From assembly GCA_017458125.1 (NCBI GenBank), contig JAFTGB010000007.1:1-36009 (forward strand): 36,009 bases of DNA, in the 5' to 3' direction. Made by a program: the position numbers and the translations under genes. This document shows positions 14,874 to 28,790 of this stretch, piece by piece (the stretch's first letter is position 1; each line of letters starts with the position of its first letter). This DNA is from Prevotella sp. Its GTDB lineage: Bacteria > Bacteroidota > Bacteroidia > Bacteroidales > Bacteroidaceae. The notes beneath the pieces are model-generated. The model worked only from the letters and a program-made list of their open reading frames with translations, searched no databases and was not told where the DNA came from.

Positions 14874-14900
14874 ACCTCTATCATATAGTCTCAGCCTTCA
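14874..14900. repeat. 27-bp repeat at the left border of cassette 1 (copy a)
   Basis: This 27-bp stretch, beginning ACCTCTATCATATAG, matches 20515-20541 with two mismatches. At 20515 it covers the end and stop codon of a phosphoribosyltransferase remnant; here, read on the minus strand, it would encode MKAETI-stop. It ends exactly where the cassette 1 left block starts, so a phosphoribosyltransferase-like gene may have been cut by whatever brought the cassette. Confidence 0.6.
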
Positions 14901-14968
14901 TTACAACTTTTTTCTCCGTGTTTTTTAATATTTTTGTCTTTTTCTGCTGCGATTTCGGATAATTTGTG

Positions 14969-14977
14969 TAATTTTGC
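14969..14977 (+). promoter_or_regulatory. -7 promoter box of cassette 1
   Basis: TAATTTTGC fits the Bacteroidetes -7 box and is preserved identically at 25901-25909 in cassette 2. Transcription from here would give a leader of roughly 400 nt before the ATG at 15382. Confidence 0.65.
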
Positions 14978-14992
14978 CATCGCTTTACTCAC

Positions 14993-15195
14993 GCCGAGCC
15001 GACTTCGTAAGATGTCGGAGCGGCTATAGGGAGGGAGCACTACATTTTGAGAATGCGTCGCTGACGCTTTGTTTTTGGCAATTCGAAATTACCACAAAAG
15101 AATATAGGGTCAAGAACATAGCAGAGGTAGATGCTGCGGGTAGGTATATACCGTCCCGTTGGCGTGCCGAGGGCAAACTGTGCCCTCACGCACGC
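14993..15195 (+). ncRNA. Candidate structured leader RNA, copy 1
   Basis: The first hairpin (14993-15024) has a GTAA tetraloop; in copy 2 (25925-25956) it is GCAA, so the GNRA rule is kept while the base changes. The hairpin GCGTGC...GAGGGC / GCCCTC...GCACGC (15162-15195) becomes GGGGGC / GCCCTC in copy 2, an A-U to G-U change that keeps pairing. GGTATATA (from 15143) could pair with TATATACC near 15212-15220, and the following CCGTT with AACGG, a pseudoknot-like order. I cannot assign it to a named RNA family. Confidence 0.5.
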
Positions 15196-15381
15196 TTTTA
15201 CGGGCGTAAATTATATACCAACGGCGTGGGTATCACTCTGTCTCGTTTACTCCTATAGGCTGTGGTAGGCCTCGAATTGCGAACGAGCAGAAGCCAGATA
15301 CCCCGCTTTTCTTTTGTAGTCACCAATGTAAAAATTTAACCAGTCCGATTCGGGGTGTTTGGCGGACATACTTGCAATAGT

Positions 15382-16332
15382 ATGAAAGAAAGAATTCTCC
15401 AGTTGGATTATTTGAAGGGCATTTTTATTCTTTTGATGGTTACGTTCCATCTTGCGTTGGTTGAACAGGCGTATCCAATGTTACGTAAAGCAGTTTACAC
15501 TTTTCACATGTCAGCTTTCCTTATTATCTCAGGCTATTTGGCAAATATTGAAAAGGATGGTAAAACATTTGGACGTGGCATGCTGAGGCTCATTGTTCCT
15601 TACGTGATTTTTGAAGCTATTTACATACTTATGGTTTTCTTCTTAGGAAAAGCAATGCATACGTCCAATTCAATAGACAATCTAACTGTCTTAAGTTTCG
15701 TCGATAGAATTGCCGAACATCCAACAGGACCATATTGGTACATTCATACACTTGTCATTTGCACTATTGTTTACTATTTTGTTTATTATGTTTTTAAACT
15801 AAAGGGAATGACGGCTTTAATTTTGACAGGATTTACTCTATATGGGTTAACACTTGTTGTTGCAGGTTTTAGTTGGAGTAACGTGATTTATTTTCTAATA
15901 GGTGTCTATATTCTCAGATGCGGTAAAAGTTTCATGGAGATGATAACCCCGTCTTTGCTTGCATTTTTGCCTTTGTGTATATTATTTGCTTCAAGTGACA
16001 ATTATCATAGGGGGGCTCTGGCAGGCGTGGCAATTACAATATTAGTTATTAGTCTATTGCTTGCTTTATTCAACTATTGTCCTGATAATGCCAAGAGGTT
16101 CTTATATTATTTAGGTAAGAATTCTTTTGCTATCGTTGTCTTCTCTCCTATCTTTACGGTCGTAACAAAAATGGCTGGCCCATATTTCAGTTTTGACCCC
16201 ACGGCTATTTCTTTCGTCATAGTTGCATTAATCTTTGTAATCATATGCTGTCTTTTCAGTGCTTGGGTATGTGACAAGATTGGCATTAGCAAATATATTT
16301 TCTGTAAGGACAATTTTTATATATCCTTTTAA
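15382..16332 (+). CDS. Acyltransferase-3 family membrane protein (cassette 1 cargo)
   Basis: 316 residues from ATG at 15382, just outside the conserved left block. It belongs to the acyltransferase-3 (OafA/OatA-type) family. The N-terminus has LDYLKGIFILLMVTFHL with the catalytic His at residue 23 in TM1, then FHMSAFLIISGYLA and PYWYIHTLVICTIVYYF, with about ten hydrophobic helices in all. Such proteins move acyl groups from the cytoplasm to surface glycans. No SGNH domain is fused here; a separate SGNH protein is encoded in cassette 2. The gene is clearly richer in A+T than its neighbours, suggesting transfer. It is followed after 16 nt by the conserved right block. Confidence 0.88.
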   Translation: MKERILQLDYLKGIFILLMVTFHLALVEQAYPMLRKAVYTFHMSAFLIISGYLANIEKDGKTFGRGMLRLIVPYVIFEAIYILMVFFLGKAMHTSNSIDNLTVLSFVDRIAEHPTGPYWYIHTLVICTIVYYFVYYVFKLKGMTALILTGFTLYGLTLVVAGFSWSNVIYFLIGVYILRCGKSFMEMITPSLLAFLPLCILFASSDNYHRGALAGVAITILVISLLLALFNYCPDNAKRFLYYLGKNSFAIVVFSPIFTVVTKMAGPYFSFDPTAISFVIVALIFVIICCLFSAWVCDKIGISKYIFCKDNFYISF

Positions 16333-16348
16333 ATAATCAGTCAAATGA

Positions 16349-16484
16349 GAGTAGGAATCCGTGCCAACATCCTTGGTCACTGTTCCCGTCCTTTGTTTCT
16401 CCAAATTTAATAATGGCCGTCCGTCGTGGCGGTCTTTTTCTATGCCTAATCAAAGAAATCATCACAAAAGTGGTGCTATTTGGA
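16349..16484 (+). repeat. Cassette 1 right block with hairpin and terminator
   Basis: 136 bp, matching 27073-27208 with the same total length. It opens with a long imperfect hairpin (GAGTAGGAA...GCCAA-CATCC-TTGGT...TTCCCGTC). Then comes a terminator-like GCCGT-CCGTC-GTGGC stem with a T-run (16416-16440), and it ends with a conserved segment AAAAGTGGTGCTATTTGGA. Conservation continues ~45 bp past the terminator, so the block is more than a transcription stop and probably marks the DNA end of the element. Confidence 0.8.
16416..16440 (+). terminator. Intrinsic terminator in cassette 1 right block
   Basis: GCCGT (16416-16420) and GTGGC (16426-16430) form a short stem with two G-U pairs around CCGTC, followed by GGTCTTTTTC. 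The same stem and a longer T-run occur at 27144-27165. Confidence 0.6.
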
Positions 16485-22172: not shown

Positions 22173-23846
22173 ATGACAAGGGCATCGGAGACTATCGAAT
22201 ACATGGAATCGCTGCAAGACGAAGAGCAGCGGCTGGGCTTGATGCGGTTCTTCAAGACTGGGGCAGGTGATTATGGTGAGGGCGATGAGTTCTTAGGCAT
22301 CAAAGTGCCGCAGACTCGAGAAGTCGTTAGGGCAGCAAGCAAAGACTTCCCGCTGGGCGAAATCCCTGAGTTACTGATGTCCCGCTGGCATGAGGTTCGA
22401 CTTTGCGGTTTCCTGATTCTTGTCGATCAGTTTGAACGACTGGCCTCAAAACGACTGGAGTATGACGAGCAGACCATCAAGAAGCGCGATGAAATCGTGA
22501 CGCTCTACCTGCAATATGCCGAGCAAGCCAACAACTGGGACTTGGTGGACTTGTCGGTCTATAAGATTCTGGGACACTGGCTGATGTTGCGATCTGCACT
22601 TGGCGATACCGACTACAAGCGGAATGTTCTCGACTCCTTAGCCAAAAGCCCATGTCTATGGAAGCAGCGCATGAGCATCGTCTGCACGTGGTATCCCTCG
22701 CATCATGGCGCCCCGGCGTGGTGTCTGCGCTATGCCGAAATCCATCTGCATCATCCCCACGACCTAATGCACAAGGCTGTCGGCTGGATGCTCCGTGAGA
22801 TGGGTAAGAAACATCTCGACCTCCTTCGCGACTTTCTCCGCCAGCACGCCCACGTAATGCCTCGCACCATGCTCCGCTATGCCATCGAGAAACTACCGGA
22901 GGCTGAGCGCAAGCAGTGGATGGCTGTTCCCACAGAACGATTTCAGAACGACTACGTTGTCAAGACCAGTCCCTTCGCCGGCATTCCCCTACCCGACTTC
23001 ATCGATATCATTCTCGCTCATGATGACAACAGTGATGAAGCCATGTACTACTTGCTCCGCCAGCGTCTGAACCGTCAGTTGGGTGAACATTATGAGGTGT
23101 TTCATCGCCAACTGCTCGACAGTTTTGAAGATATCATCGAAGACTTCTTTCTCTATCTTCGCGAGGGCAATAACGGTCAGAACCGCACTCCCTATCAGTC
23201 GTTTCAGCGCATTAAGAACAAGGACTCATTCGAAACGTGGCTGTTGAACACCTTTCGCAATTATCTCAGCAATAGGGCAAAGGCGGAAGAGACTTACCTG
23301 TCAATCGACCCGGACCGTCATGCCTCGAATGACGTTCCCAACTCTCTGATTACCGACGAACAGAAACTATTCGTCGCCTCCCAGTTGATTGCCTACGCCC
23401 ATCAAGTGTTCTTTCCTCGCGGTCGTTTCATCTTCCTTCGTTCGCTGCTCACCATACTCAACAAGCAGAAGGCCCTGCCTGATCGGGAAATGGCCACCGC
23501 CCTGGGGATGACCCATCTGTCCTACCGCGTCATGGTTCACCGCATGAAGCATAATCTGTCCAAGTTTCGCCAGCGTCTGCTCTGTGGAGAGCAACTTCGC
23601 CTTGACGAGCAGCATCAACACATGGCCCAACAGATCTACAATGATTTCACTCACCTCTACCCGACGCTGATGACCTACTATACCCAGTCCATCGCCACGC
23701 TGAAGTGTGCCGACGCCATCAGTCAACTGCGCCAGCACTATTATGAAGCCACGGGCTACATTGCCCACGAGCCAGAACCTTCAACAGCCATCACAATCAA
23801 TATGGCAGGATTCTGGGAGAAACTAGACCAAATGCTTATCTATTAG
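22173..23846 (+). CDS. AlkD-like DNA alkylation repair protein fused to an ECF-sigma-like domain
   Basis: 557 residues in a single uninterrupted frame. Residues 1-~235 are a HEAT-repeat DNA alkylation repair domain of the AlkD family: FFKTGAGDYGEGDEFLGIKVPQTREV, then NNWDLVDLSVYKILGHWL, then MHKAVGWMLREMGKK. AlkD-type enzymes excise alkylated bases without flipping them. The C-terminal ~295 residues are unrelated: FEDIIEDFFLYLREG...SFQRIKNKDSFETWLLNTFRNYLSNRAK (near 320-370) resembles sigma region 2, and DREMATALGMTHLSYRVMVHRMKHNL (near 437) resembles region 4. Each half is the length of a complete stand-alone protein. The fusion would link base-damage recognition to transcription; this is inference. 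It lies divergent from an ECF sigma gene and upstream of sodB. Confidence 0.8.
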   Translation: MTRASETIEYMESLQDEEQRLGLMRFFKTGAGDYGEGDEFLGIKVPQTREVVRAASKDFPLGEIPELLMSRWHEVRLCGFLILVDQFERLASKRLEYDEQTIKKRDEIVTLYLQYAEQANNWDLVDLSVYKILGHWLMLRSALGDTDYKRNVLDSLAKSPCLWKQRMSIVCTWYPSHHGAPAWCLRYAEIHLHHPHDLMHKAVGWMLREMGKKHLDLLRDFLRQHAHVMPRTMLRYAIEKLPEAERKQWMAVPTERFQNDYVVKTSPFAGIPLPDFIDIILAHDDNSDEAMYYLLRQRLNRQLGEHYEVFHRQLLDSFEDIIEDFFLYLREGNNGQNRTPYQSFQRIKNKDSFETWLLNTFRNYLSNRAKAEETYLSIDPDRHASNDVPNSLITDEQKLFVASQLIAYAHQVFFPRGRFIFLRSLLTILNKQKALPDREMATALGMTHLSYRVMVHRMKHNLSKFRQRLLCGEQLRLDEQHQHMAQQIYNDFTHLYPTLMTYYTQSIATLKCADAISQLRQHYYEATGYIAHEPEPSTAITINMAGFWEKLDQMLIY

Positions 23847-25720: not shown

Positions 25721-25900
25721 TAAACGCCTAAATATTTCATCATCCACCGTGTAATATATAGGATAATGCAGATTATCTTGCTATGAAGACAATGCATCAA
25801 TAGGACGATTTTTGGCAAGATACAGAATCGTATTACAACTTATTTCTTCGTGTTTCATAATATTTTTCTCTTTTCCTGCTGCAATTTCGGATAATTTGTG

Positions 25901-25909
25901 TAATTTTGC
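25901..25909 (+). promoter_or_regulatory. -7 promoter box of cassette 2
   Basis: TAATTTTGC, identical to cassette 1, within a 27-bp stretch that does not differ between copies. The predicted leader to the ATG at 26313 is about 395 nt. Confidence 0.65.
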
Positions 25910-25924
25910 CAACGCTTTACTCAC

Positions 25925-26126
25925 GCCGAGCCGACTTCGCAAGATGTCGGAGCGGCTACAGGGAGGGAGCACTACATTTTGAAAATGCGTCGCTGACGCT
26001 TTGTTTTGGCGATTCGAAACTTCCACAAACGAATGGTAGTCGAAACAATGCAGAAGTAGATGCTACGGGTAGGTATATACCGTCCCGTTAGCGTGCCGGG
26101 GGCTAACTATGCCCTCACGCACGCTT
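25925..26126 (+). ncRNA. Candidate structured leader RNA, copy 2
   Basis: Same helices as copy 1: GCAA-capped hairpin at 25925-25956, GCGTC-GCT-GACGC at 25987-25999, and the GCGTGC...GCACGC hairpin around 26092-26126. The preserved pairing with changed bases argues for a functional RNA or single-stranded DNA fold rather than coding sequence. Confidence 0.5.
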
Positions 26127-26312
26127 TTAGGGGCGTAAATATATACCAACGGCGTGGGTATCACTCTGCTCTGTTCACTACCATAGGCTGTGGAAGGCCT
26201 CGAATCGCGGACGAGCAGAAGCCAGATACCCCGCTTTTCTTTTGTAGTTACCGAAGTAACAATTTAACCAGTCCGATTCTGGGTGTTTGGCGGACGTAAT
26301 GTCTTTCTATCA

Positions 26313-27062
26313 ATGAAAAAAATAGGACTAAGAAATTGTTTATTATGGATTTCTGCTATCGGAAATGTATTTCTGCTTGCGCTTGTTATCTTCATAGGTT
26401 GCGTGAAGACGAACTATATAACAAGCAAGTTGGAACGTATGGGGATTATGAAGACAGATCCCCAAAAGCGAGGAGATTATTGGTGTATTCAAGGATGGAC
26501 AAATACACTTGAGAAATTGCATCTTGATGTGGATGTTGTGTTCTTTGGCAACTCCATCACAAGGGGTAGTTCTTTCGAGAAATACTTCCCCAACGTGACC
26601 ATCTGCAATCTCGGCTATCCAGGAGACAACTTAGACGGCATGTTACTCCGTGTTAATCAAATCAAGGCCGTTAATCCGGAAAAAGTCTTTGTGATGGCTG
26701 GCATTAACGGTCTATATATCCAAACTGAGCAGGTTTTCACCGAGAAATATGTCACAATGGTCGATTCTATCAAACAGGTAGTTCCTAATGCAAAGATTTA
26801 TCTTCAAAGTATTTTGCCAGTAAATCCTTCTATGAAGGATGGAAAGTTGTTCAACAAGGAAAAAATAGCAAAATGTAATGATATCATAAGAATAGTAGCA
26901 GGACAAAAGGGCTGCATTTACGTAGATTTGTATAGATTGTATGCCGTAAATGGTATTATGCCAACAGAATTAACGCGCGACGGGATTCACCTGTTTCCCG
27001 AATCATACGACAGATGGGCTGAAGAAATCAGAAAATATATCGAGGAACCGAGTGACTATTGA
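26313..27062 (+). CDS. Membrane-anchored SGNH/GDSL hydrolase-like protein (cassette 2 cargo)
   Basis: 249 residues from ATG at 26313. An N-terminal signal anchor (LLWISAIGNVFLLALVIFIGC) is followed by an extracytoplasmic SGNH fold. Block I is FFGNSITRG with nucleophile Ser81, the oxyanion residues are in NLGYPGDN and AGINGLY (Asn132), and block V is RDGIHLFPE with Asp223 and His226. SGNH domains act as esterases or, when paired with acyltransferase-3 proteins, as the transferase placing acetyl on surface glycans. The AT3 partner type is encoded in cassette 1. Cys30 lies at the end of the hydrophobic segment, but the preceding residues are a poor lipobox. A+T-rich relative to glycerate kinase. 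The conserved right block follows after 10 nt. Confidence 0.85.
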   Translation: MKKIGLRNCLLWISAIGNVFLLALVIFIGCVKTNYITSKLERMGIMKTDPQKRGDYWCIQGWTNTLEKLHLDVDVVFFGNSITRGSSFEKYFPNVTICNLGYPGDNLDGMLLRVNQIKAVNPEKVFVMAGINGLYIQTEQVFTEKYVTMVDSIKQVVPNAKIYLQSILPVNPSMKDGKLFNKEKIAKCNDIIRIVAGQKGCIYVDLYRLYAVNGIMPTELTRDGIHLFPESYDRWAEEIRKYIEEPSDY

Positions 27063-27072
27063 CGAATAAAAA

Positions 27073-27208
27073 GAGCGGGAACCTGCGCCGACATCTTCGG
27101 CCTCAGTTCCCGCTCGTTGTTTCTCCACATTATTATATTATAGGCCGTCCGTCGTGGCGTTTTTTATGCCTATCCAAAGAAATCATCGCAAAAGTGGTGC
27201 TATTTGGA
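27073..27208 (+). repeat. Cassette 2 right block with hairpin and terminator
   Basis: Counterpart of 16349-16484. The opening hairpin is stronger here: GAGCGGGAAC (27073-27082) pairs perfectly with GTTCCCGCTC (27106-27115), and inside it GCCGA pairs with TCGGC where copy 1 has GCCAA with TTGGT, so both sides changed together. A terminator stem (27144-27158) with a T-run and the conserved AAAAGTGGTGCTATTTGGA end follow. Confidence 0.8.
27144..27165 (+). terminator. Intrinsic terminator in cassette 2 right block
   Basis: GCCGT-CCGTC-GTGGC followed by a run of T residues, matching 16416-16440 in cassette 1. Confidence 0.65.
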
Positions 27209-28678: not shown

Positions 28679-28790
28679 GGCTTTATGCGCTTCTTCAAGA
28701 CTGGTGCAGGTGACTATGGCGAGGGCGACGAGTTCTTAGGCATCAAAGTGCAGCAAACTCAAGAAGTCGTAAGCAACAATCAATAATCGC
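28679..28790 (+). pseudogene. Scar: alkD 5' fragment joined to a sodB 3'-end-like fragment
   Basis: From GGCTT (28679) to GTCGTAAG (~28773) the DNA closely matches 22230-22328 of the AlkD-sigma gene and still encodes FFKTGAGDYGEGDEFLGIKV. Immediately afterwards ACAATCAATAATCGC matches the last bases of sodB plus its downstream sequence (24513-24527). A duplicated alkD-sodB segment with a large internal deletion would explain this. No function expected. Confidence 0.7.

Follow-up and report, generated by a model that had tools for sequence, protein, structure and literature searches.

Two unrelated genes in one Prevotella genome are enclosed by closely similar DNA on both sides, which raises the question of what the shared flanks are and why they are conserved. 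The window analysed here is 36,009 nucleotides of Prevotella sp. (assembly GCA_017458125.1, contig JAFTGB010000007.1, positions 1–36,009). The left blocks recur in it as direct repeats at 14900–15370 and 25832–26298 (three ungapped pieces of 90–94% identity in a repeat search of the window), and their gapped alignment has 90.3% identity over 473 columns (E = 1.95e-151). The right blocks share an ungapped direct-repeat core (16436–16484 and 27160–27208; 92% identity) and align with gaps at 78.7% identity over 141 columns (16348–16484 and 27072–27208; E = 2.8e-27). Both units have the blocks in the same order and on the same strand, as the initial annotation had reported, and its observation that the enclosed genes differ is likewise borne out:

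15382–16332, forward strand: gene of unit 1, acyltransferase, Acyl_transf_3 (PF01757; Pfam match)
26313–27062, forward strand: gene of unit 2, GDSL lipase (PF13472; Pfam match)

Since one product is an Acyl_transf_3 protein and the other a GDSL lipase, the two genes are not homologous. The spacing between gene and block is short, although not the 14 and 16 nt first given: counted by eye with the first ATG as start, it is 11 nt on the left and 15 nt on the right in unit 1, and 14 nt and 9 nt in unit 2. No transposase or integrase lies inside either unit, which follows from their size. These features had been interpreted as a unit of gene capture or exchange with interchangeable cargo in a fixed frame.

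The window also contains a 95-nt direct repeat (22236–22330 and 28679–28773; 89% identity). It is the start of a DNA alkylation repair gene (22173–23846), recurring directly behind a DUF1349 gene, and the second copy resembles a remnant of the start of the repair gene.

A probable promoter and structured leader in the left block

Judged from its sequence, the left block is a Bacteroidota-type promoter followed by a structured 5′ leader RNA of ~390 nt, and less a gene-swapping frame. In an alignment of 32 copies, conservation starts at the motif TAnnTTTG, which we take to be the Bacteroidota-type -7 promoter element; among the copies aligned, only the two of the window resemble each other over the ~69 nt upstream of it. 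The predicted parts of the leader are as follows.

14969–14976, forward strand: -7 promoter element TAnnTTTG, copy 1, invariant in the 28 leaders of alignment A1, which were cut at this motif
25901–25908, forward strand: promoter element, copy 2 (leader alignment)
14993–15025, forward strand: 5′ hairpin P0, copy 1 (minimum free energy fold and alignment by eye; absent from the RNAalifold consensus)
15039–15044, forward strand: 5′ strand of P1, ACUACA, with long-range pairing to 15315–15320 (RNAalifold, columns 125–128 with 436–439)
15055–15067, forward strand: P2 hairpin GCGUC GCU GACGC, copy 1 (alignment)
15090–15096, forward strand: P3 loop UACCACA, copy 1, predicted to kiss the P6 apex at 15261–15267 (kissing-pair search)
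26020–26027, forward strand: P3 loop CUUCCACA, copy 2 (kissing-pair search)
15162–15201, forward strand: P5 hairpin, copy 1 (two helices, with 98.5% and 95.2% of cells paired and changes on both sides)
15228–15234, forward strand: strand a, GGGUAUC, the 5′ arm of P6, copy 1 (covariation and a:b:c strand search)
26156–26162, forward strand: strand a, copy 2 (a:b:c strand search)
15261–15267, forward strand: P6 apical loop UGUGGUA, kissing partner, copy 1 (kissing-pair search)
26189–26196, forward strand: P6 apex UGUGGAAG, copy 2, compensating the altered P3 loop (kissing-pair search)
15297–15303, forward strand: strand b, GAUACCC, the 3′ arm of P6, copy 1, also able to pair with strand c (a:b:c strand search)
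15307–15315, forward strand: U-tract after P6, copy 1 (T at 15307–15309 invariant in the 28 leaders of alignment A2 and at least 90% conserved in the 35 sequences of alignment A3)
26225–26243, forward strand: strand b and U-tract, copy 2 (a:b:c strand search and alignment)
15343–15367, forward strand: P7 hairpin, copy 1 (stem GUCCG/CGGAC by eye on the alignment)
15353–15359, forward strand: strand c, GGGUGUU, the P7 loop, copy 1, ending 22 nt before the start codon (a:b:c strand search)
26271–26295, forward strand: P7 hairpin with strand c (26281–26287), copy 2 (alignment and a:b:c strand search)

Covariation of the helices

From the promoter onward the leader RNA has a fold z score of -6.6. 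The RNAalifold consensus of 28 leaders contains 52 pairs, 19 of them with changes on both sides; P0 and P7 are not returned from the full 28-leader alignment. For the P5–P6 pairs of these leaders, 67 cells have changed on both sides, compared with 24.1 when shuffled (none of 500 as high), the shuffle statistics here and below ignoring the relatedness of the sequences; structures slid along the alignment give 6–14 such cells. Further pair types show no excess (43 versus 42.5 shuffled), and a:b is the weakest of the five helices, with 86.1% of cells paired. In a wider set of 35 sequences the P6 core has 62 both-side-changed cells against 18.3, with none of 500 shuffles as high on any of the five measures and 6–22 in the slid controls. 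Among the P5–P6 pairs, G-U cells (138) far outnumber A-C cells (15) in a structure that came from an RNA folding program allowing G-U, as is expected for RNA transcribed from this strand. The conserved, covarying RNA secondary structure looked for in an attenuator leader is thus present.

A covarying kissing loop

The P3 loop and the P6 apex form at least 8 exact pairs in 65 of 85 leaders and six or fewer in 12; another 11 of the 96 leaders had no anchors and were left out of this count. The longest exact match between the two loops averages 7.6 nt within a leader, 5.5 nt between crossed leaders and 4.9 nt with a shuffled apex. The letters themselves covary, with variants that include CUACCACA/UGUGGUAG, CUUCCACA/UGUGGAAG and CUUAGGAA/UUCCUAAG, and also CCUGAGAAA/UUUCUCAGG, CCUAGGAAA/UUUCCUAGG and CGUAGGAAAC/GUUUCCUACG. 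The window pair is itself an example of a compensated change, with UACCACA/UGUGGUA in copy 1 and UUCCACA/UGUGGAA in copy 2.

The same complementarity is seen at sites outside the 85-leader set. At nine sites of the own genome beyond the window pair and C52, eight have at least 7 kissing pairs, compared with 47 of 450 shuffles, and two have loop letters unlike any variant of that set. Fifteen weak matches of leader model R1 were also opened, and all 15 have an upstream match of 7–9 nt to the searched part of P6 (in 300 shuffles and 210 crosses, at least 7 nt is reached 23 and 50 times, respectively). The match falls on the hairpin apex in 14 of them; L215 is misparsed, and L217 and L226 are near-copies.

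A third strand before the gene

Strand b is complementary both to strand a, the 5′ arm of P6, and to strand c, the P7 loop just before the gene. A clear a:b helix is present in 92 of 97 leaders, and in these b:c pairing (G-U allowed) is complete at 7 of 7 positions in 52, reaches 6 of 7 in 30 and is five or fewer in 10. Shuffles give 7 of 7 in 1.4% and 6 of 7 in 16.2%; downstream regions taken from other leaders give 23.7% and 39.1%, a weak control, since ACCC is common to the b strands. Where strand b is rare, however, strand c is rare to match (GACACUC/GUGUGUC, AUUCCCA/UGGGAGU, ACUUCCA/CGGGAGU and GGAUUCC/GGAGUCC).

Minimum free energy folds cannot represent kissing loops. When the RNA is cut at the U-tract, they pair b with a in 29 of 92 leaders and leave it free in 47; when 85 nt are added, they pair it downstream in 21 and with a in 24, leaving it free in 35. 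For both window copies the fold of the cut RNA leaves b free, and that of the longer RNA pairs it downstream. These counts suggest that the a:b hairpin P6 is not favoured by energy alone, and in the model folds strand b of the window copies pairs downstream once that sequence is available. At the sequence level the leader has a candidate terminator hairpin, P6 with its U-tract, together with a potential competing fold b:c, but energy folds favour P6 in only 29 of 92 leaders. Covariation in helix pairs, kissing loop and alternative strand pairing alike marks the leader as an RNA.

Because the conserved 5′ part is a promoter with a covarying RNA leader, regulation explains its conservation. We consider it quite likely that the left block is a promoter with a cis-acting attenuator leader RNA, one that probably decides whether the downstream genes are on.

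Distribution of the leader

BLAST matches to the left block occur in 74 of 200 sampled genomes of the genus. Within the family, model R1 detects the leader in 141 of 251 genomes, representing 23 of 30 genera, and within the order in 29 of 295; both counts include the own genome. It detects the leader in none of the 147 other genomes of a phylum-wide sample. These tallies are by genome; R1 also matches the antisense strand of the leader (29 bits), so weak R1 matches are not all new sites. Model R2, built partly from hand-chosen weak R1 matches with L217 and L226 excluded, finds it in 88 of 121 genomes of the family (15 of 16 genera; all but the own genome drawn at a completeness of at least 95%), with up to 18 sites in one genome, and in 1 of 117 other genomes of a phylum-wide sample. 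The own genome has 12 leader sites at E ≤0.01 and nine at E ≤0.001. An exact pattern search returned 60 stretches, all in records of Prevotella, Prevotellaceae, Bacteroidaceae or Bacteroidales, many of them from the rumen; the cultured strain Prevotella communis E15-14 is among the carriers of the motif. Spread by phages or plasmids finds no support, blastn of one leader against phages and of one restriction-modification (R-M) frame against plasmids giving no match.

Two leaders elsewhere in the own genome (C77:53509 and C45:1429; L234 and L235) precede similar proteins of ~150 aa (MCQVFDDCDPNEFT...). Truncated leaders also occur (L040, at G117:C1, L041 and L082); in L040 the 5′ third of the leader stands before an open reading frame (ORF) that reads like what we take to be a REP-associated transposase.

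Downstream genes and a second leader module

For 64 leaders of the genus, the picked gene start lies 10–20 nt after the leader in 27, 21–40 nt in six, 100–300 nt in 22 and elsewhere in nine, and many of the 22 have a second leader module in between. At 11 of the 15 weak R1 sites an ORF of at least 90 aa lies within about 400 nt. A same-strand gene at a constrained distance, as expected downstream of an attenuator leader, is thus found.

The genes are very different from one another, often encoding anti-phage restriction systems or cell-surface functions, so that the earlier idea of changing cargo holds to this extent. Many are DNA methyltransferases or restriction enzymes (C5, D12 and N6/N4 methyltransferases, HsdM, MmeI, TdeIII and MutH); PADLOC, run on ten cargos, returned two MTase_II and one weak AbiP. 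In a large R-M group, an extra ~230 nt between leader and gene constitutes a second attenuator related to the first. Twenty of 28 such units could be anchored and eight were left out; in all 20 the upstream loop and apex of module 2 form 7 pairs (five different pairs; at most 5 in 286 crosses). All 20 also contain GGGCGUGGA together with its partner CCACGCCC, and a terminator, CCCCCUUUU..GAGGGC-UUUU with small variants, located at or near the start codon, giving at the level of sequence an antiterminator a′:b′ against a terminator b′:c′.

Two small ORFs are associated with these units. L058 and L079 have an extra gene of 88–89 aa (MAKYTQ.SHITTVEEVK) between the first leader module and the methyltransferase. 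In module 2 (e.g. L047:1880–1940, L069 and L122) the attenuator is traversed by a conserved small ORF (MFTLIRAWTVRLLSDVG...), which shares the reading frame of the methyltransferase in some units but not in others.

The ~640-nt 5′ frames of one group of R-M units are 75–90% identical, end at or within ~20–40 nt of the start codon and stand before unrelated or weakly related proteins. Among 153 frame pairs from 18 R-M units, 56 are at least 75% identical, and the first proteins of these 56 have no BLASTP hit in nine pairs, less than 35% identity in 28 and at least 60% in six. These identities suggest that frames and cargo are often differently combined, and faster divergence of the methyltransferases may explain part of this. 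A quick tree of 96 leaders, in which 32 of 93 inner branches are weak, carries 49 leaders labelled R-M or other defence, 15 surface glycan, 16 envelope or secreted and 16 other; the labels come partly from Pfam and PADLOC, partly from DNA homology to labelled units and partly from reading N-termini, L058 and L079 are labelled R-M despite the 88–89-aa ORF ahead of the methyltransferase, and partial leaders (the second of L040, L041, L082 and L052) were left off. The R-M label needs 10 changes on this tree compared with 32.4 when shuffled (0 of 500), the surface label 11 compared with 14.2 (2 of 500) and the envelope label 12 compared with 15.0 (4 of 500). Cargo class follows leader type, so exchange would be mostly within a class.

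Being repeated, the leader frame could have been carried from gene to gene by homologous recombination or gene conversion, with change of cargo as a by-product and regulation as the frame's own function. This is compatible with an attenuator leader, and we regard it as evenly balanced. It would account for the 37 of 56 alike-frame pairs whose first proteins are unmatched or below 35% identity, and for window leaders that are 90% identical though 10.9 kb apart. Methyltransferases of the same fold can, however, diverge below 35% under a selected leader, so that unequal rates may explain part of the pattern, and the non-random distribution of cargo classes on the tree also counts against it.

The right block

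16348–16484, forward strand: right block, copy 1, with a hairpin (by eye), a terminator-like hairpin and U-tract (16415–16442) and a tail of ~45 nt
27072–27208, forward strand: right block, copy 2 (gapped alignment and own-genome search)

The initial annotation noted that the right block stays alike for ~45 bp past its terminator. This is correct for the two window copies, but none of the 13 other matches listed extends past the first ~19 nt of the tail. With the full tail common to the window copies only, the two loci would have exchanged or copied DNA on both sides of the gene, and the window pair still requires a copying event in which leader and 3′ block moved jointly to flank different genes.

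The own genome has four right-block matches. Two are those of the window, and the other two lie on C55, a contig without a match to either leader model. It had been expected that the two blocks would always be paired; the right block is absent from 14 of 20 leader-bearing relatives and present in six, standing behind a leader-borne gene in two of the 20, and recurrent paired sites around each cargo, as in integron-type or capture cassettes, are not seen. Ten right-block sites were opened with R2 (those of relatives being the best one per genome, six in all). A leader precedes the preceding gene at four of them: the two window copies, G062 and G041, the last a weak match of 24 bits in which a promoter motif and 8 nt of kissing complementarity were recognised by eye. 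The other six, two on C55 and one each in G097, G051, G044 and G198, have no detectable leader, which is the unpaired occurrence that the initial annotation had set against its own reading; four further G097 sites were left out of this tally, and BLAST finds no leader on their contigs. From this tally of four against six, the right block is on present sequences a dispersed terminator element, mostly apart from leaders, and at G062 and G041 it stands behind leader-borne genes more often than we would expect by chance for a scattered element.

Two of these sites have features of their own. L152 (G041:C64) is a leader–gene–right-block unit like those of the window, built around a 201-aa secreted protein. 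The C55 elements (C55:20786 and 22712; L147 and L148) are 1.9 kb apart and flank two small genes that read, by eye, like helix-turn-helix regulators of the antitoxin type.

A capture or exchange cassette, in which the blocks are recombination sites or homology arms and the cargo between them is swapped, is thus only partly supported, and we hold it to be improbable. The diversity of genes behind one 5′ block fits it, as do the R-M frames that end at or near the start codon, the ~69 nt before the promoter and ~45 nt after the terminator that only the window copies share in full among the copies aligned or listed, and the right blocks of G062 and G041. The searches for the right block in the own genome and in relatives nevertheless speak against a general paired cassette, as do the RNA-like covariation with its G-U excess and the clustering of cargo classes on the leader tree. 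The leader and GDSL gene of unit 2 are, moreover, common to another species at 78% identity (L036), which marks their pairing as, by sequence, an old association.

Proposed mechanism

For the attenuator leader the following course is proposed. Transcription would start at the TAnnTTTG promoter, and the RNA would fold into P0–P5, with the P3 loop making a kissing contact of 7–9 nt with the P6 apex. P6 would act as a terminator or gate, and this contact would tune its folding: while a:b is held, transcription would stop at the U-tract or the downstream gene would stay shut. In read-through RNA, strand b would leave strand a and pair with strand c in the P7 loop just before the start codon, and b:c may set access to that codon. 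The signal, a small molecule or protein, would stabilise or break the kissing complex. In module 2 of the R-M units, the kissing-apex hairpin a′:b′ would compete with the terminator b′:c′, whose U-tract is at or near the start codon. Because the kissed hairpin of module 2 is the antiterminator, the kissed state of module 1 could, by homology, be the ON state. The promoter motif, covarying helices, kissing pairs, b:c complementarity, U-tract and position before genes are seen at the sequence level; transcription start, termination, the direction of the switch and its signal we infer.

The leader could instead be a small RNA acting in trans and ending at the P6 U-tract, with the downstream gene incidental. 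P6 and its U-tract could form a natural 3′ end, and loops that differ among copies would allow separate specificities. Against this, of 64 leaders 33 have a gene 10–40 nt downstream and 22 have one at 100–300 nt, many of these with module 2; strand c, just before the gene, matches b; and module 2 would terminate at or near the start codon. We rate action in trans slightly lower again than the cassette. A structure acting as DNA (a cruciform, or a single-strand recombination site such as attC) has long palindromic arms in its favour, and covariation alone cannot separate DNA from RNA, but the inequality of G-U and A-C cells, the U-tract, the promoter and the fixed orientation before genes make it highly improbable.

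If correct, the attenuator reading would explain how repeated blocks around unrelated genes can come to resemble mobile cassettes, and a major group of gut and rumen bacteria would control anti-phage and surface genes through an RNA class absent from Rfam 15. The covarying kissing loop supplies compensatory mutants ready-made, by which the structure of the switch and its direction are testable together, and with so many copies in each genome there is a route to finding the signal. A wider proposal, which we put a little short of an even chance, is that a single class of kissing-loop attenuators, with up to 18 copies per genome, forms an undescribed global RNA switch of the Bacteroidaceae, placing R-M, surface-glycan and secreted-protein genes under one signal (e.g. 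phage attack or envelope state), with frames that also provide homology for cargo exchange.

Comparison with known systems

Neither the window leader nor the leaders at 36 related loci match any Rfam 15 family at its cut-off, the only match at these loci being a tRNA in L132; the best matches below cut-off are mir-1468 (E = 0.016) and ar35 (E = 0.0062, outside P6, in L229). T-box and hammerhead RNAs were dropped, there being no Rfam match and the loop letters covarying with an internal partner. Among the matches listed, the leader was not found described in the open-access literature. A structured attenuator leader is a known kind of element, and this class of leader appears to be new.

JUMPstart RNA is a leader element common to polysaccharide operons, and resembles the present leader in being shared among operons. 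It is gamma-proteobacterial according to a table in PMC2864571, and the window leader has no match at the cut-off of its family (RF01707). Structured RNAs of the same bacterial group are named in the same paper as Bacteroidales-1, Bacteroides-1 and Bacteroid-trp (RF01692–RF01694; PMC2864571). None of the three matches the window leader, either at cut-off or at E values up to 10, and none reaches cut-off in the 36 related loci.

The leader is like riboswitch and attenuator leaders with a loop–loop contact in having a structured 5′ part, kissing loops, a hairpin with a U-tract and an alternative strand before the gene. The purine riboswitch, for example, has kissing loops L2 and L3. The present leader differs from such RNAs in being much larger (~390 nt), in the covariation of its kissing letters and in preceding many unrelated genes. 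The capsule leaders of Bacteroides are long 5′ leaders before surface-polysaccharide genes, where read-through is controlled by UpxY antitermination. The leader described here is similar in belonging to the Bacteroidales, in being a long 5′ leader before surface-polysaccharide genes and in its proposed control of read-through, and differs from them in also standing before single genes, R-M systems and genes for secreted proteins.
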